Assembly (NCBI RefSeq): GCF_000015045.1
Contig: NC_008609.1
Coordinates: forward strand, 744,001-808,000
Length of the DNA stretch: 64,000 bases
Origin: Pelobacter propionicus DSM 2379
GTDB lineage: Bacteria; Desulfobacterota; Desulfuromonadia; Geobacterales; Pseudopelobacteraceae
Direction of reading: 5' to 3'
This document shows positions 49,673 to 58,516 of this stretch, in pieces. The position numbers were made by a program, and so were the translations under genes. How positions within the stretch are numbered: the first letter of the stretch is position 1; every line of letters starts with the position of its first letter. The notes beneath the pieces are model-generated. The model saw nothing but the letters and a program-made list of their open reading frames with translations. It searched no databases and was not told the origin of the DNA.

Positions 49673-49876
49673 CTACTGCTTCTGAACCTCTTCGGCCTGT
49701 AGTCCCTTGGGGCCCTTGACGACGTTATACGTGACCTTCTCTCCTTCGGCCAGTGTCTTGAAGCCGCTGCCGGTGATTGCGGAGAAGTGGACAAAGACAT
49801 CGCCGCTGCCGTCATCCTGCTCGATAAATCCGAAACCCTTGCTCTCGTTGAACCATTTGACTGTTCCTGTTGCCAT
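49673..49876 (-). CDS. Cold-shock-domain protein (CspA family)
   Basis: 67 residues from ATG 49876, after AAAGGAG. Start [21 protein letters not shown]1-like KGFGFI and RNP2-like VFVHFSAI are intact. A single-stranded nucleic-acid chaperone that melts RNA structure. The upstream ~170 bases before the pyrophosphatase stop leave room for a long leader, as in many csp genes, and it is near a DEAD-box helicase gene on the same strand, a pairing often seen in cold response. Confidence 0.95.
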
Positions 49877-50052
49877 TTCCTGTTCTCTCCTTTGTTGTCT
49901 GTCATGCCCCTGAACGGCTGATTGCCGGCCAACGTGATCCTCCATCGGCATCCCCTCAAGGAAACTCCCGCTGAAAGATGGTACCTAGGTTACCTCAGCT
50001 TCGCGGCAATGCAACCCCGGGGAGAAAAAAAGCGCAAAAAAGTGTGGAAAAG

Positions 50053-51705
50053 TTAACCCTGCAGGCGGGCCAGCACCTTCAAGAGATGGGGCAGCATCTG
50101 TTTCTTGCGCGACATGACACCCTTGAGTTCATAGAGCTGTGGCTCCAGATGGGGACAGCCCATGACATGGGCCAGTTCCTCAATGCCCTCAGCCAGGAAG
50201 AGGGTTGTTTCGCTGATGATGTCGGTTACCATCAGGCCAGCCAGTTGCAGGCGGTCCTCCTCCCGGATGCGTTTCAGCTCTTCGCGCACCTGTTCCTTCA
50301 GCTCGTGAAATTCGTCAAAACCGACTACCTCCACCTGTCCGATGCCGAACCTGACCTGGTCCTGCGTGAAGTGCTTGAAATCCGAGCGTACAGCACGGTT
50401 CAGCGAAGCATGGGCGGAAAAGCCGCCGCAGGCGGAGAAGATTTCCCTGCCGAAGCGCTGATGGTCGAGACCGGCCAGGCTTTCGAGCCAGGTGACCATC
50501 TCCTGGTCGCGGGGCGTTGTGGTGGGCGATTTGAGGATCACGGTATCGGAGAGGATGCCGGCTAACAGAAGGGCTGCGATAGTGTTTTCAGGCTCAATAC
50601 CCTGCTGGCGGTACAGCCCGGCCACCACCGTGCAGGTGCTGCCCACCGGTGAGGTGATGAAGGAGATCGGCTGGCTGGTGGGCGGGTTTCCCAGCTTATG
50701 GTGGTCGATCACCTCCAGGATCTCCACGGTCTCCGCACCCGGAACGGCTTGGGTCAACTCGTTGTGATCCACCAGGATCAGGGAGTAGGGGATCGGTGTC
50801 AGCAGTGACGACCTGGTGGCGACTCCGGCAATGGTTCCGTTCTCGTCGGTGACGATCACCGCCGGCTGCCCCCCGTGCAGCAGCTTGAGGCGCAGCTGAG
50901 CCAGGGATTCACCAAGCTCGATCTTTTCGAAGTGCGGCTCGAAAAAACATGACAGAGGAGTGGAGAGGCGGGCCAGCCAGGCGGATGTGGCGGTGTCATG
51001 GGGGGTGGAGATGACGGTGACGCCGTTGTTACGTGCCCTGTCCAGGAGTTCCCCGGGGACCGCATAACCGCCGGTCACCACCAGCAGACGTACCCCAAGG
51101 TCGATGGCTGCCTGCTGTATGGAGCGGCGGTCCCCGGTCATGATCATCAGCGAGGAGGTGTCGTAGCCTGCCAGTTGTTCCGAGAATGAATCTTCCACCA
51201 TGGCGCCGATGAAGAGGTGCAGATGCTCCAGTTCGTCGCTTGCCCGGCCGGAGAGAAACTCCCCTTCGAGGCAGCCGCACAGTGAGCGCAGCGATGTGTC
51301 CACACCCCGCTTGCGCCCGGTGCCAGCCACCAGGTATTTTTCCGACAGCTTGAGCAGTGAAGCCATGCCCACCGGCCTGTCGTGCTCATCCACCACCGGC
51401 AGGACCCTGATGGAGTGGCGGTGGAAGAGCTGCAGCACGTCTCTCAGGGGCATCTCTCTCCGGGCGATTATGGGTTGACGCGAGATGATGTCCCTGACCC
51501 TGGGGTGGACGTCGGCCATGCAGAGCGGCGGCTGGAGGCCCAGTCGTTCCAGGATGTAGCCGGTCTGGGGATTGGGCTCACCCGACATGGCGGCGGTCAC
51601 GTTGTCATGGCCCAGGCGCCGCTTCAGCTCTGCATAGGCCATGGCCGATGCGACGGAATCCGTGTCCGGATTCGTATGTCCGATAACATAGATCTGTTGA
51701 GCCAT
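50053..51705 (-). CDS. Manganese-dependent inorganic pyrophosphatase-like protein with CBS and DRTGG domains
   Basis: 550 residues from ATG 51705, eight bases after GGGAGG. The DHH-family pyrophosphatase is split by an insert: N-terminal GHTNPDTDSVASA (metal site), then a CBS motif, a DRTGG domain (about 195-300), a second CBS, and the second half with VIDHHKLGN and the DHHA2 C-terminus. CBS pairs usually bind adenine nucleotides and tune activity, so it may hydrolyse pyrophosphate under energy control. This architecture is known from clostridia and delta-proteobacteria. Follows the DEAD-box gene on the same strand, 41 bases apart. Confidence 0.93.
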   Translation of the reverse strand: MAQQIYVIGHTNPDTDSVASAMAYAELKRRLGHDNVTAAMSGEPNPQTGYILERLGLQPPLCMADVHPRVRDIISRQPIIARREMPLRDVLQLFHRHSIRVLPVVDEHDRPVGMASLLKLSEKYLVAGTGRKRGVDTSLRSLCGCLEGEFLSGRASDELEHLHLFIGAMVEDSFSEQLAGYDTSSLMIMTGDRRSIQQAAIDLGVRLLVVTGGYAVPGELLDRARNNGVTVISTPHDTATSAWLARLSTPLSCFFEPHFEKIELGESLAQLRLKLLHGGQPAVIVTDENGTIAGVATRSSLLTPIPYSLILVDHNELTQAVPGAETVEILEVIDHHKLGNPPTSQPISFITSPVGSTCTVVAGLYRQQGIEPENTIAALLLAGILSDTVILKSPTTTPRDQEMVTWLESLAGLDHQRFGREIFSACGGFSAHASLNRAVRSDFKHFTQDQVRFGIGQVEVVGFDEFHELKEQVREELKRIREEDRLQLAGLMVTDIISETTLFLAEGIEELAHVMGCPHLEPQLYELKGVMSRKKQMLPHLLKVLARLQG

Positions 51706-51746
51706 GCAGCTCACCTCCCGTTATGACGTTGCTGTCCCTCTCGGCC

Positions 51747-53090
51747 TCAGTGTGCCCGTTGTGAACGCTGGGGGCGCCGAACCGCCTGGGCCGGCACGGC
51801 ACTGCCCGGCTTCCCTGTTTTCGGTTTGCCCGCTGCGGCGGCGTTGTCGCGGGGCGCTCCGCTACCCGCCGTGTTTCCCCGCGTCGCAGGTTTTCCGGAC
51901 GCCTGTCTGCCTCCTCCCCGGGGGGGGCGCGGAGGACGTGCAAATTCGCTGTCCTTGTGGGGCGCCGGGACGCTGTAATCGAACTGATCCACGGTCCTGC
52001 GCTCCAGCTCCGCATTGAGTTTTTTCTCGATGGTGCGCACCATGGCGTTGTCATCGGGAGTGACCAAGGTGAATGCGTCGCCGCTGCGGGCTGCGCGTCC
52101 GGTGCGGCCGATGCGATGGATATAGGCCTCGGCCGTGTCCGGGATATCGTAGTTGACCACGTGGGAGATCTGGGATACGTCGATGCCCCGGGCGGCGATG
52201 TCGGTGGCAACCATGATCTGGAAGGTCCCGTCGCGGAAGCCGTCCAGGGCGGCCTGGCGCCGGTTCTGGGAGAGGTTTCCCTGCAGGGAAGTGGCCCGGT
52301 AGCCGGCTTTCTCCAGTTGTTCCCCCAGGCGTTTGGCGCGATGCTTGGTGCGGGCGAAGATCAGTACCGACTCTGTGTCGGTGTGGCGCAGAAGTTCCAG
52401 CAGAAGCGGGGTCTTCAGGTGCTGGCTGACCGGATAGAGGGCGTGGCTGACCGTGACCGGCGGCGCCGTACTGCCGGCCTGCACCGTTATGGGCTGGCGG
52501 AGGATGTCGCTGGCCAGGCGCCGGATGTCGTCGGGCATGGTGGCGGAAAAGAGCAGCGTCTGCCGCTGGGCGGGGAGATGCTTGAGAACCCTGCGGATAT
52601 CGGGCAGAAAGCCCATGTCGAACATCTGGTCGGCCTCATCCAGTACCAGTACCTCGATTCGCGACAGATCGATCGTCCCCTGGTTGATGTGATCCAGCAG
52701 GCGGCCGGGGCAGGCCACGACTATGTCGACGCCGCGCCTGAGCCTTTCGATCTGTGGGTTGACGGATACCCCGCCGTAGACGGTCATGCTCTTCAGGCCG
52801 GTTTTGGCACCCAGTTGGGCGATGGATGTGTTGATCTGTTCGGCCAGCTCCCGGGTGGGGGCGATGATCAGCGCCCTGACTGTGCCCTGTTTTCCCTCCA
52901 TCAGGCGATGCAGGATCGGCAGTGCAAAGGCCGCTGTCTTTCCGGTGCCGGTCTGGGCCAAGCCCATGACGTCGCTGCCGGCCATGACCGGCGGTATTGA
53001 CTGCTTCTGGATGGGGGTGGGGGTGCTGTAGCCGGCGGCGCTGATGCCGGCCGCGATGGTGGGATGAAACTCGAACTTCTGGAAATCCAT
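51747..53090 (-). CDS. DEAD-box RNA helicase (RhlE-like)
   Basis: 447 residues from ATG 53090 (MDFQKFEF), preceded by AAGGAG. Q motif region TPTPIQKQSIP, motif I AQTGTGKT, Ia PTRELAEQ, II DEAD, III SAT, V ATDIAARGIDV and VI HRIGRTGR all intact. The C-terminal ~80 residues are basic, rich in arginine, proline and glycine, typical of RhlE-type tails that bind RNA. It probably unwinds rRNA or mRNA in ribosome assembly or decay. Upstream is a ~400-base gap with an intrinsic terminator in its leader, so its expression may be attenuated. Confidence 0.94.
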   Translation of the reverse strand: MDFQKFEFHPTIAAGISAAGYSTPTPIQKQSIPPVMAGSDVMGLAQTGTGKTAAFALPILHRLMEGKQGTVRALIIAPTRELAEQINTSIAQLGAKTGLKSMTVYGGVSVNPQIERLRRGVDIVVACPGRLLDHINQGTIDLSRIEVLVLDEADQMFDMGFLPDIRRVLKHLPAQRQTLLFSATMPDDIRRLASDILRQPITVQAGSTAPPVTVSHALYPVSQHLKTPLLLELLRHTDTESVLIFARTKHRAKRLGEQLEKAGYRATSLQGNLSQNRRQAALDGFRDGTFQIMVATDIAARGIDVSQISHVVNYDIPDTAEAYIHRIGRTGRAARSGDAFTLVTPDDNAMVRTIEKKLNAELERRTVDQFDYSVPAPHKDSEFARPPRPPRGGGRQASGKPATRGNTAGSGAPRDNAAAAGKPKTGKPGSAVPAQAVRRPQRSQRAH

Positions 53091-53118
53091 AAAACTCCTT
53101 GTCTGTGTGGTGTTACGC

Positions 53119-53145
53119 AAAAAGCCCCGACCTGAGTTGGGGCTT
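53119..53145 (-). terminator. Intrinsic terminator inside the DEAD-box helicase leader
   Basis: On the minus strand AAGCCCC and GGGGCTT pair (7 bp) around a ~13-base loop, followed by five T, ending about 30 bases before the helicase ATG and 20 before its AAGGAG. Nothing coding precedes it on this strand back to secA's start region. Suggests an attenuator, or the end of a short upstream transcript. Confidence 0.6.
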
Positions 53146-53492
53146 GTGTATAGTATTGTTTAATCGTTACTACCCTGACGTGTATTGCCCTGCAGTACGT
53201 TTGTCATCTGTTGACTACACATAGCAGCTTTTCAGGTTTTTGTATGCATAAATAAACGGGAGGTCGAAAAATGGGTCCACCGTTTCCTTCCTGTGTCGAT
53301 TCTGTAAAAGGCATGTGACAACCGGGGCAGGGGGTGTCATGCCATGTCTGCCAGGCTGCTAACTGGTTGAATCCGCGATCGGGGCATTCAGATGGGCCTG
53401 CCGTCTTCCGGCCTTTTCTGTTGAGTACCCCCCTGAATTATGCTAGCTTTATAAGCTATTTTTCAAAAACGTAATCAGCGGGAGCAGACATA
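53146..53492. other. Divergent region between DEAD-box helicase and secA, with a mini ORF
   Basis: About 350 bases. It must hold the promoter(s) for both genes, though no box pair is convincing. A 15-codon frame (MGPPFPSCVDSVKGM) at 53271-53318 follows GGGAGG by seven bases on the secA strand. A hairpin with GGCATG-TGACA and TGTCA-TGCC arms spans about 53310-53343. Whether the mini ORF is translated is unknown. Confidence 0.4.
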
Positions 53493-56183
53493 ATGTTCGG
53501 TTCACTTGTTAAAAAGGTCTTTGGCAGCAAAAACGAGCGTGAGATCAAGAAACTCTGGCCGATCGTGGCGCGCATTAATGAACTGGAGGCGTCGATCTCG
53601 CCCTTGAGCGACGAGCAGCTGCGCGACAAGACGGCCGAGTTCAAGGAACGCCATGGCAAGGGTGAGTCGCTGGACGCCCTTATGCCCGAGGCTTTTGCGG
53701 TCTGCCGCGAGGCGAGCAAGCGGGTACTGGGCATGCGCCATTTTGACGTGCAGCTGATCGGCGGCATGGTACTGCATTCCGGCAAAATATCCGAGATGAA
53801 GACCGGTGAGGGGAAGACCCTGGTGGCTACCCTGCCCGCCTACCTGAACGCCATCTCGGGCAAGGGCGTGCATGTGGTGACGGTCAACGACTACCTGGCC
53901 CGGCGCGACTCTGAGTGGATGGGCAGGCTGTACTCCTTCCTGGGGCTGACCGTCGGCGTGATCGTCCATGGCGTCGAGGACGATCAGCGCCGCATCAACT
54001 ACGCCGCCGATATCACCTATGGCACCAACAACGAGTTCGGCTTCGACTACTTGCGGGACAACATGAAGTTCTCTCTGGACGACTACGTTCAGCGCGGCTT
54101 CAACTTTGCCATCGTCGACGAGGTGGACTCGATCCTGATCGACGAGGCCAGAACGCCCTTGATCATCTCCGGCCCCACCGAGGATTCCACAGACAAGTAT
54201 TATGTCATCGACCGGATTATCCCGTTGCTGAAAAAGGGGGAGGTTAAGGAAGAGGAGGCCAACACCCTTTCGGGCAAGCGCAAGCTCTACACCGGCGACT
54301 TCACCATCGACGAGAAGGCCAAAAGCGCTACGCTCACCGAACAGGGTGTCCTCAAGGTGGAGAAGCTGCTCAAGGTGGACAACCTGTATGACCCGCGCAA
54401 TATCGAGTTTTTGCACCACACCCAGCAGGCCCTGCGGGCCCATGCCATGTACAGGCGCGATGTGGACTATGTGGTCAAGGATGGCGAGGTGATGATCGTT
54501 GACGAATTCACCGGGCGCCTCATGCCGGGGCGGCGCTGGTCCGACGGCCTGCACCAGGCCATCGAGGCCAAGGAAGGGGTCACCATCGAGAATGAAAACC
54601 AGACCCTGGCCACCATCACCTTTCAGAACTACTTCCGCATGTACAAAAAGCTCGGCGGCATGACCGGTACCGCCGACACGGAAGCAGAGGAGTTTCACAA
54701 GATCTACAAGCTGGACGTGGTGGTTATTCCCACCAACCGTCCGCTCCTGCGTCCGGACTTCCCGGACGTGATCTACAAGACCGAGCGGGAGAAGTTCGGC
54801 GCGGTCATCCAGGACATCAAGGAACATTACGCCACCGGCCAGCCCTGTCTGGTGGGTACCATCTCCATCGAGAAGTCGGAGGTGCTGTCGGAACTGCTGA
54901 AAAGGGAGGGTATTCCCCACAACGTGCTTAACGCCAAGCAGCATGAGCGGGAGGCGGAGATCGTCTCCCAGGCCGGGCGTCTGAAGGCCATCACCATCGC
55001 CACCAATATGGCCGGCCGCGGTACCGACATTCTGCTGGGGGGCAATGCCGATGCGCTGGCCAGTCAGTGGCGTCGCGCCAACCCCGAGGCTGGCGAGGAA
55101 GAGTATCAGGCGATCCTGAAGAACTACAAGACCGTCTGTGCCGCCGAGCATGACGAGGTGGTCAGGTTGGGCGGCCTGCACATCATCGGCACCGAACGCC
55201 ATGAATCGCGCCGTATCGACAACCAGTTACGCGGCCGTTCCGGCCGTCAGGGCGACCCTGGTTCGTCGCGCTTTTACCTCTCACTGGAGGATGACCTACT
55301 GCGAATCTTCGGTTCCGAGCGCGTGTCCAAGATCATGGATTTCCTCAAGATCGAAGAGGGAGAAGCCATCACCCATGCCATGATCAACAAGTCCATCGAG
55401 AATGCCCAGAAGAAGGTGGAGGCCCACAACTTCGACATCCGCAAGCACCTGATCGAGTATGACGATGTCATGAACAAACAGCGCGAGGTTATTTACACCC
55501 AGCGCCGCGAGATTCTGGGGGGGCAGGATATCCGCGAGAGTTTTCTGGAGATGCTGGACGAAACCGTGGAAGAGATTGTTGCCAGCTATGCCATCGAAAA
55601 GAGCCCGGCCGAGGAGTGGGACTGGCAGGCGATCAACGAGGCTGTGTTCAAGTGTTTCAACCTGCAGTTCGAACTGCCCCAGGATACCATGGCGCGACTT
55701 ACGCCGGCCGGTCTGAAGGAAATGCTCGCAGAGCAGGCCCATGCCCTGTTTGCCGCCAGGGTGAAGGAGATGGGTGACGATCTGATCGACCACCTGATCA
55801 AGGTGATGATGCTGCAGGCAATCGACACCCACTGGAAAGACCACCTGCTCAACATCGATCACTTGAAGGAGGGGATCGGCCTACGCGGCTACGGCCAGAA
55901 GGATCCCAAGCAGGAGTACAAGAAGGAGGCCTACGAGCTCTTCATGGGGCTGATCATGCGTATCCGCGAAGAGGTGGTGGAGCGTATCTTCTGGGTGCAG
56001 CTGGAGCGGCCCGAGGAGGTGGAGGAGATCGAGGAGGAGCAGCGCAGCAAAAAGATCGTCTTCAATCTCTCCGAAGAAGAGGAGCGGGTGCAGGAACCGG
56101 CCAGGAGCAACCGTGTTGCCGGGAGAAACGATCCCTGTCCCTGCGGCAGTGGCAAGAAGTACAAGAAGTGCTGCGGAAAGTAG
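53493..56183 (+). CDS. secA: Preprotein translocase ATPase SecA
   Basis: 896 residues, normal length. The motor ATPase that pushes unfolded proteins through SecYEG. Walker [51 protein letters not shown] and the C-terminal zinc site C-x-C-x8-C-C ([17 protein letters not shown]) are intact. ATG 53493 follows GGGAG. A terminator ends the gene; the neighbouring acetaldehyde dehydrogenase converges on it. No secM-like gene precedes it. Confidence 0.98.
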
Positions 56184-56305: not shown

Positions 56306-57661
56306 TTATTCGTCGCGCTCGTAGTCAACCATACGCTGTGCAACCGCCTTGATGCTCATCAGGTCGCGGAAACTGATGTTGTTGCCCAGGTAGTTGCTGC
56401 CGTCGGTGCCGCAACCCAGAGTCAGTGAAGGAGGCAGTTTGTTGTAGATCAGGCCGACGGAGCCGTGAACCGCAGGCTGGTTGAGCAGCAAACGGTTGGC
56501 GGGGATTTCCATGGCATACCTGTCCAGAATGGCCTGGTCCTGGGAGTGAACAACCGAAGTATGTCCGGCGCCGCCCCACAGCAGCTGGGATTTTGCTGCG
56601 GCAATGGCCTCGTCGGTGCCGTTGTAGGCGATATAGCCCAGAACTGGGGAGAGTTTCTCATGGCTGAACCAGTCTTCGGGTCCGATGCACTTGAGGGGCA
56701 CCAACAGCAGTTTGGCGTCTTCAGGAATATCAAAACCGGCCAGCTTGGCGATGAACTGGGGTGATTTGCCGACGATGGCGGTGGCGGGAACGCCGCGTTC
56801 CTTGTCGAACATGACCGCTTCCAGCTTGGCTTTCTCTTCGTCGTTGACGAGATAGGCTCCGCGCTCGACCATCATCTTCACGCCCTCTTTGCAGACGGCC
56901 GGATCGTCAAAGATCATGGACTGGTCGGAGGAGCAGATGGTGCCATTGTCGAAGGTCTTGGAGGCGATAACGTTGTTGATGGCAACGCTGAGTTTGGCCG
57001 ACTTGGAGATGAATACCGGGGTGTTGCCGGGGCCGACGCCGATGGCGGGGTGGCCGGAGCTGTACGCCGATTTAACCATGGCGCCGCCGCCGGTGGCCAG
57101 GACCAGTTTTACGCCGGGATGCTTGAACAGGGCGTTGGTTGCTTCGATGGAGGGTTCATCGATCCACTGGATGATGTCAGCGGGTGCACCGGCGCTGATG
57201 GCGGCATCACGCATCAACTGTGCTGCGTGGACGCTGCACTTCTGTGCGCGTGGGTGGGCAGCGAAGATGACGGAGTTACGGGCCTTGAGGGCGATCAGCG
57301 ACTTGAACATAACGGTGGAAGTCGGGTTTGTGGTCGGTGTAGCGGCGGCGATAACACCGAAAGGTTCGGCGATGTACTTTACGCCTTCTTCTTCCCTGAT
57401 AATACCAACGGATTTTTGATCTTTTTGCCATTCAGCAACAACGTGGGCGCCAAGGTGGTTCTTGATGGCTTTGTGGTCAGCGCGGCCGATGCCGGTTTCC
57501 GCTACAGCTTCTTCGCCAAGGATTACCTCGTTGGCGACGCTGACTGCGTCCATGGCGGCACAAATTTTGTCAACCTGCTCCTGGGTGAAGGTTTTGTAGA
57601 TTTGAGCTGCCTTCGTTGCCTTTGCTACCAACTCATCAATCACTTTAACTACGTCTGCCAT
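56306..57661 (-). CDS. Acylating acetaldehyde dehydrogenase (stand-alone)
   Basis: 451 residues from ATG 57661 (MADVVKVIDE), seven bases after GGGAGG; longer in-frame starts have no site. It interconverts acetaldehyde, CoA and NAD with acetyl-CoA and NADH. It resembles the N-terminal half of AdhE: TNPTSTVMFKSLIALKARN, GVGPGNTPVFI, and the catalytic C243 in FDNGTICSSDQS. No microcompartment-targeting extension and no fused alcohol dehydrogenase. Suited to growth on, or formation of, ethanol. It stands alone between secA and the ribosomal operon, with a long upstream gap. Confidence 0.9.
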   Translation of the reverse strand: MADVVKVIDELVAKATKAAQIYKTFTQEQVDKICAAMDAVSVANEVILGEEAVAETGIGRADHKAIKNHLGAHVVAEWQKDQKSVGIIREEEGVKYIAEPFGVIAAATPTTNPTSTVMFKSLIALKARNSVIFAAHPRAQKCSVHAAQLMRDAAISAGAPADIIQWIDEPSIEATNALFKHPGVKLVLATGGGAMVKSAYSSGHPAIGVGPGNTPVFISKSAKLSVAINNVIASKTFDNGTICSSDQSMIFDDPAVCKEGVKMMVERGAYLVNDEEKAKLEAVMFDKERGVPATAIVGKSPQFIAKLAGFDIPEDAKLLLVPLKCIGPEDWFSHEKLSPVLGYIAYNGTDEAIAAAKSQLLWGGAGHTSVVHSQDQAILDRYAMEIPANRLLLNQPAVHGSVGLIYNKLPPSLTLGCGTDGSNYLGNNISFRDLMSIKAVAQRMVDYERDE

Positions 57662-58516
57662 TACATACCTCCCATGGAATAGTGTTACTGCACGCAACAG
57701 CGTTAGACTGTGCGAAGCATTTTGTTGCCAAATATAACAATGTGATTTTTGCACGTGGCGTCAGTCTGGAAACAAGCCTTGACAGCCGTGTTAGATCGTC
57801 ATTTTCCTTAGAACGATTATGATGATAACGGAGCCGAATATATCAAAATAAAACAGCTTGTCAAATACTTTCTTTGTGGATTGAACAGGCTTGCCGGTTG
57901 CCGTGAGTGAACGTCTGGAGCTGGTTTTTGGTGCGGCGCAAACGTCAGGACTATCGTTATATGTTGCGATACGTGGTGTTGTCTGTCTGTCTGGCTTAAA
58001 AACTACCATCGTATTGTTTGCGGCTGGGACGCCATGGCTATTCAGCGCTATGCGGGCTGGATTTCGGCGGAGGTGCGCCTACTTTAGCGCATCTCAATTC
58101 ATTAAAAAACAGGTTTTGAAAATGCTATTTTATGTCAAGTTTTTGCTGCGGCATTGAGAGGCGCGGAGAGTTGGATTTAACCGCCGGTGAGCTGGCAAAA
58201 GTGTAACGTCTTTTTAGGTTGCTTTGGGTGCTGTCTGGTGTGAGAGCTGGCCTCGGTTTTCTTCGTCTTTTGGTGCGTGCGGGTTGTCGTTGCAGGGGGG
58301 TGGCGGGGTGGCGCCGTGCTGAAAAGCGACTGTTGTCGGCGTGTTGCATGGGCTGGTGGGAGTGTCTTGGATGTCGGGCCGGTTTTCAGGGGTACTATTC
58401 TGTTGCGCTTGCCGGGAAAATATAGTACAAAGTCCGTTCTTGTAAAGACGGCTTTGGCCGAATCTCCTTGTTCCGGGCAAGACCGGGACTGGAAAACCGT
58501 GAGGAGGAAACACACA
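57662..58516. other. Long intergenic gap with T/G-rich block upstream of rpsF
   Basis: 855 bases between divergent genes. The left half (to about 58140) is A/T-rich. About 58200-58400 on the plus strand is strikingly T/G-rich and A-poor: by hand count 58201-58380 has about 14 A and about 59 T in 180 bases. An 88-codon frame at 57891-58157 lacks any recognisable motif and is not called. A TATAGT box sits near 58420, about 95 bases before the rpsF ATG, with no good -35 partner. Confidence 0.5.

Follow-up and report, generated by a model that had tools for sequence, protein, structure and literature searches.

A conserved terminator in the leader of an RhlE-type DEAD-box RNA helicase gene: a probable gene-specific transcription attenuator

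The RhlE-type DEAD-box RNA helicase gene of Pelobacter propionicus DSM 2379 is preceded by an intrinsic terminator, and the leader that carries it is probably, judging from sequence comparison, a gene-specific transcription attenuator controlling this one helicase. The position of the element, its conservation, its association with the helicase and the covariation of its 5′ box are evident from the aligned leaders: a conserved 5′ box, a terminator and, after the U run, a strand covarying with that box are shared by many RhlE orthologs within the class and by some in other parts of the phylum. As in attenuators that work by intrinsic termination, the terminator in many relatives lies between a promoter pattern and the start codon, and it accompanies the gene from species to species. 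Few bacteria have been shown to have RNA helicases that feed back on their own leaders.

RESULTS

The hairpin and its gene neighbourhood

The window, that is, the whole 64 000-nt stretch of DNA that was analysed, contains the features listed in Table 1. The hairpin reads AAGCCCC-AACTCAGGTC-GGGGCTT on the minus strand from 53145 to 53122, followed by TTT to 53119. The original prediction of a stem and five T some 30 bases before the helicase ATG was borne out: the stem has 7 bp and the loop 10 nt, two of the five T are part of the stem, and the last T lies 28 nt from the ATG (53090). With an energy of −12.2 kcal/mol, the hairpin is weaker than the median of 56 representative leaders (−17.85 kcal/mol). 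It was absent from a terminator consensus scan because that scan takes loops of 3–8 nt. Folded as a whole, the 216-nt leader in the window was no better than its shuffles (z = −0.63). Of the 39 crudely called genes of the window, 4, the helicase among them, have a similar terminator no more than 75 nt from the start.

Table 1. Features of the helicase gene and its leader in the window
Feature	Position	Strand	Basis
RhlE-type DEAD-box RNA helicase, 447 aa	51747..53090	minus	Pfam DEAD and Helicase_C
Shine-Dalgarno AAGGAG	53095..53100	minus	sequence
Leader element, end-to-end match to model R1	53091..53187	minus	28.9 bits, E = 6.8 × 10−5 in the window
Intrinsic terminator in the leader	53119..53145	minus	sequence; ortholog comparison
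GTAGTAACGATTAA, possible degenerate 5′ box	53160..53173	minus	R1 alignment; like stretch in congener L002
Weak candidate promoter CATACA, 17 nt, TATGTG preceded by TG	53218..53246	minus	by eye, L001/L002 comparison

The best NCBIfam models for the helicase were RhlE and RhlE2, with scores under their cut-offs, and a place for the gene at ≥60% identity was found in 68 of 77 relative genomes. Upstream of the leader, secA is divergent (53493–56183, plus strand), and the next long minus-strand ORF, setting aside those antisense to secA, is at 56306–57754. Thus, no gene on the same strand obviously needs this terminator, in line with the original remark that no gene lies upstream on that strand. 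A nearby csp gene had also been claimed; it is a real cold-shock gene with a CSD domain (49673–49876, minus strand) in the same cluster, although it lies ∼1.9 kb downstream of the helicase stop. Closeness to csp is not general, as a loose motif places a csp-like frame close upstream of the helicase in 10 of 109 relatives. Between the two, 32 nt behind the helicase, is a gene with DHH, CBS, DRTGG and DHHA2 domains, so that helicase, DHH-type gene and cold-shock gene share one strand over 49673–53090. In the related loci L054 and L062, the apparent end of the same DHH/CBS/DRTGG/DHHA2 gene is instead found directly upstream of the helicase leader.

The terminator is conserved before helicase orthologs

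Upstream DNA was collected for 67 of the 68 orthologs at ≥60% identity in the 77 relatives, one gene at a contig edge (G075) being left out and nine genomes having no such place, and 42 further loci were added, kept from 80 after 38 were removed as identical to others. One region with only 23 nt upstream (L125) was dropped, reducing the set for the terminator count from 109 to 108, many of them closely related to each other. A strong terminator with its T run starting within 75 nt of the start codon was found in 87 of these 108 regions, compared with 6 of 324 dinucleotide shuffles; the helicase-leader terminator is therefore not a chance hairpin. The search for the same hairpin upstream of orthologs, which had been suggested with the prediction, thus gave a clear positive result. 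The T run starts a median of 35 nt from the start codon (interquartile range 32.5–37). Some regions scored as misses do carry the leader further upstream (L005, L009, L013, L022 and L044), and in another (L062) the start was set wrongly.

In the relatives, the parts of the leader follow a regular order: a promoter pattern, the 5′ box, the hairpin and its U run, then a short spacer and finally the ribosome site. Isolates that carry the leader include Trichlorobacter thiogenes (L099, identical to L024) and Geobacter argillaceus (L084, identical to L017). A TTGAC/extended −10 promoter pattern is present upstream in 63 of the 108 regions. The 5′ box, of which GTAGTAACGATTAA in the window may be a degenerate counterpart, takes the form GTTCCnGGA or GTACCGGATA, with examples such as TTGTTGTACCGGATAGCAC, GTTCCCGGATAAACA and TGTTCCAGGAAGATCAC, and a typical hairpin is AAGCCCCGGAA..CCGGGGCTT plus a U run. 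Among the leaders fetched from more distant genomes (see below), GTTCC[ACT]GG is found in 21 of 38 from the class and 6 of 11 from the phylum.

The leader element is linked to one helicase gene

A leader model, R1, was built from 39 leaders (alignment A1), with the window and its congener excluded; the E-values it gives are rough. The leader in the window is the top one of the four R1 matches listed in its genome (E = 0.0045). In the 77 relatives, all 42 listed matches with E ≤ 3.8 × 10−6 are upstream of helicase orthologs, though many of these, or their close kin, were used to train R1. The 16 weaker matches that were read in detail, from among those listed, comprised a further rhlE (L188) and fifteen hairpins at other places, of which four follow csp genes.

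Across the class, R1 had a match at E ≤ 1 × 10−4 in 138 of 277 genomes, representing 51 of 82 genera, and no match at this threshold in the other 139, which include the genome of the window. By count from the match table, 59 of the matching genomes fall outside the order. Forty class matches were fetched, 39 from outside the order and one from inside. The helicase, at 68–77% identity, is downstream in 38 of these, the two exceptions being L276, where the hairpin follows a csp gene, and L284. The helicase start lies ∼25–230 nt beyond the R1 match in 17 of these 38 cases, which is why a terminator within 75 nt of the start was found in just 21 of the 38. In a phylum sample, 19 of 395 genomes had an R1 match at E ≤ 1 × 10−5 and 376, again including that of the window, had none. 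All 11 matches outside the class have the helicase downstream (60–74% identity), in two cases ∼320 nt beyond the match. Apart from L276 and L284, the strong R1 matches that were checked thus belong to a single helicase gene.

The copy in the window is a divergent member of this family, with a degenerate box, a weaker hairpin, a short U run, an uncertain promoter and a closing helix (described below) that is not evident. In the R1 alignment the hairpin is its best-matching part, and a separate sequence alignment puts GTAGTAACGATTAA at a different place. The pairing of box and post-terminator segment shows no excess in the window leader (−7.3, against a row mean of −7.5).

The 5′ box covaries with the segment after the U run

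The 5′ box can pair with the segment directly after the U run, for example TGTTCC with GGAACA, CGTTCC with GGAACG, GTTGTAC with GTACAAC and AAAGCCG with CGGCTTT. This pairing was assessed by a swap test, which compares pairing within a leader (cognate) with pairing between leaders (non-cognate). Cognate pairing was better in 45 representatives of the first collection, thinned from 83 usable leaders (p = 0.00025), and in 56 representatives, thinned from 104 (p = 2 × 10−5). For 64 phylum-wide representatives it was −9.45 kcal/mol compared with −8.17 kcal/mol for non-cognate pairing (p = 4 × 10−5), and p was 3.4 × 10−4 with the two strongest removed. The 36 of the 39 A1 leaders that were used gave p = 0.0014; the choice of the A1 leaders preceded any test of the helix in them. 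The effect is modest, a leader's own partner being among the best tenth in only 7 of 45 leaders. Significance was not reached when the 22 representatives from outside the order were taken by themselves (p = 0.09), nor in 16 leaders that have no standard promoter (p = 0.18); with the two strongest removed, 27 promoter-type leaders gave p = 0.04.

The helix was also examined in a sequence-only alignment of 41 leaders (A3), comprising 26 of the 30 script-found leaders from outside the order (L254, L273, L281 and L295 were omitted), 13 leaders of the first collection, L001 and L002. Over all 41 leaders, 82.3% of the cells pair, a value that 1 of 500 shuffles reached (shuffle mean 78.3). Both-side changes occur in 5 of the 6 pairs, as many as in 39 of 500 shuffles, and in 11 cells, a number reached by none of the 500. 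The covariation score of 0.228 compares with 0.172 for shuffled and 0.063–0.081 for slid versions. The 13 rows from the first collection were hand-picked, partly for a visible helix, and were counted apart; they hold one both-side cell. In the 26 rows from outside the order, 130 of 155 cells are paired (reached by 7 of 2000 shuffles), and 10 cells are changed on both sides, a number that none of 2000 shuffles reached (mean 2.9); pairing is far poorer in slid versions. Kinship among the leader sequences inflates all these shuffle controls. The closing helix can form only in RNA that extends past the terminator; as one of its strands is transcribed later than the U run, the decision to terminate cannot rest with the helix itself.

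Candidate mechanisms and known elements

Several other ways in which the leader might work were considered and rejected. An antiterminator formed by the box and the 5′ arm of the terminator is seen in many single-sequence folds, yet cognate and swapped pairs did not differ (p = 0.18); for the box with the 3′ arm, the swap test gave p = 0.04. The swap tests thus gave no mutually exclusive antiterminator structure in the leader. Some attenuators rely on proteins in place of such a structure. An extra small hairpin between box and terminator was not supported (mean fold z = +0.33), and a leader-peptide attenuator was dismissed, with one candidate short ORF with a ribosome site among 113 leaders. 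Control by CsrA was discarded, the CsrA family being matched in 8 of the 77 genomes (7 over the cut-off); genus g6, in which the GTACCGGATA box is frequent, had no such match in its 13 genomes. Mimicry of LSU rRNA was likewise set aside, as 45 leaders shared no excess of words with LSU rRNA pieces (8.29 compared with 8.24). At the gathering score, Rfam recognized tRNA alone in the window, and E-value searches with 13 distinct loci gave only matches below gathering, for example L20_leader in L291 (21.9 of the 58.7 bits needed).

Other DEAD-box genes and csp-linked loci

The genome of the window has further DEAD-box genes, two of which have leader hairpins with U runs. A paralog of 45% identity (L148; upstream of G000:C3:2746859–2748037, minus strand) has a terminator-like hairpin, CCACAGGG...CCCTGTGG plus a U run, soon after a promoter-like TATACAT; loci in relatives are L211, L214, L221, L223 and L225. 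Among 20 sampled relatives, a terminator was found within 150 nt of the start of this gene in 11 and within 75 nt in 6. A second paralog, of 40% identity, has a conserved structured leader of ∼155–215 nt that ends 20 nt before the gene (G000:C3:452659–452875, minus strand; L149:2844–3059; related loci L227–L244), with a terminator-like hairpin at the 5′ end, seen by eye, and a long helix. A model of this leader, R3, matched 79 of 277 class genomes, 78 of them once only. Both-side changes occur in 4 of its 32 predicted pairs and it has no Rfam match at the gathering score. In genus g5, an R3 match lies away from the place of the paralog found in the helicase search of the 77 relatives; the neighbours of other R3 matches were compared solely with the places from that search. 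Since paralogs also carry leader hairpins, control at the level of the leader may be widespread among the helicase genes of these bacteria.

A small lysine-rich ORF (MAKPN[FY]QFQK...) follows csp and a terminator in L194 and L196 and directly precedes the helicase in L021 and L026; one copy was tested and had no Pfam match. The leader of a csp paralog in the genome of the window (L157) holds GTTCCGGCATAGCACCGGAG, which recalls the helicase box, possibly by chance, and a weak match to a model R2 in this locus is on the opposite strand and not at the csp leader.

DISCUSSION

A model for control of the helicase

The attenuator predicted in the helicase leader gains support from the conservation and position of the terminator and from the covarying helix around it; the response to RNA structure or cold that was proposed with it is plausible. 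In such an attenuator, transcription would start just upstream of the leader element and many polymerases would halt at the hairpin, releasing a short leader RNA of ∼55–75 nt in the relatives and, provided that the candidate promoter is correct, ∼90 nt in the window. Helicase mRNA would be made by read-through, which would be the controlled step. In the read-through RNA, the 5′ box and the post-terminator segment would pair and so enclose the spent terminator in a stem close to the ribosome-binding site. A signal may perhaps act on the box by way of a protein, not a ribosome or a metabolite. What that signal might be is a guess: since strong matches are almost exclusively before this helicase, and with Caulobacter rhlE as a partial precedent (see below), we would name as most likely the activity of the helicase itself or the RNA-folding state that it relieves, giving autoregulation with expression raised in the cold.

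Several other explanations have to be weighed against an attenuator that serves this gene. Cold-shock proteins could open the hairpin and thereby increase read-through at low temperature, which would link expression of csp and helicase. The csp gene of the window is in the same cluster as the helicase, 10 of 109 relatives have a csp-like frame (by a loose motif, not verified singly) in the 450 nt upstream, and the hairpin stands between csp and helicase in L003, L014 and L015. However, by the same loose motif no such frame is upstream in the other 99, and the box half of the element is unmatched in L003 and L014, so we regard this switch as possible though somewhat unlikely. The same two loci, where R1 positions 46–101 and 46–95 are all that is matched, also bear on a terminator that merely passes a fixed fraction of polymerases and keeps the helicase low, with no signal: the hairpin persists there, with a csp-like gene upstream, despite lacking a matched 5′ half, and an antiterminator could not be shown. 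A conserved box and a covarying helix would be superfluous for fixed leakage, though, and we judge such constitutive tuning unlikely.

The terminated leader itself might be the product, a small RNA acting in trans, with the helicase made by occasional read-through. A short promoter-proximal transcript with a strong terminator and a conserved box does resemble a small RNA, whereas the covariation involves sequence beyond the terminator and, apart from two of the 40 fetched, every strong match that was checked lies with the helicase gene; this explanation seems very improbable. Hardly to be credited is a hairpin without any part in helicase control that ends some other RNA, such as one transcribed antisense from the direction of secA. 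The promoter of the window helicase is admittedly not clear, but among the orthologs the spacing to the helicase start is kept despite differing upstream neighbours, and the promoter pattern noted above is present upstream in 63 of 108 regions. We thus retain the gene-specific attenuator as the best explanation. A broader form of it, a class-wide family in which RhlE gauges folding of its nascent leader and RhlE, or an RNA-chaperone state under its control, decides passage of the hairpin, after which the box closes the stem, and in which helicases are controlled as an RNA-level set, is rather unlikely on present evidence.

A short attenuator that a class of bacteria retains ahead of the same helicase would offer a simple system in which to ask what cells measure when they need more helicase. 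The leader is a candidate RNA element that had no match in the Rfam searches made here with the window and 13 loci. If the broader form were true, RhlE would gauge RNA folding on its own nascent leader, and DEAD-box genes would be controlled as a set at the RNA level.

Comparison with known systems

An attenuator before a DEAD-box gene was not found described in the part of the literature covered, which included PMC5472812, PMC11109978, PMC8632094, PMC2965389 and PMC2864571. A uORF motif is described before hflX, there termed an RNA helicase (PMC8632094). Naville and Gautheret (PMC2965389) treat terminators 5′ of gene families as a mark of attenuation, as we do here; the main text of that paper does not contain rhlE, deaD, DEAD, Geobacter, cold or COG0513. 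The HMP-PP (thiS) riboswitch (PMC6478431) is, by the title of the paper, a terminator-embedded aptamer, so that there too the terminator is part of the sensing unit; however, it is a metabolite riboswitch tied to thiamin genes, whereas the leader here precedes a helicase.

A close comparison is with rhlE of Caulobacter crescentus, likewise a gene of the RhlE family with an RNA leader that affects expression, and one whose fusion is expressed more highly in an rhlE null strain (PMC5472812). The Caulobacter leader differs in being 186 nt long and in raising expression, its fusion had no transcriptional cold induction in the wild type, and a premature terminator is unmentioned in the passages concerned (PMC5472812). 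The Caulobacter cspA leader, as cited in the same paper, is likewise an example of transcription attenuation of a gene for RNA handling in the cold response, though one of a different gene family.
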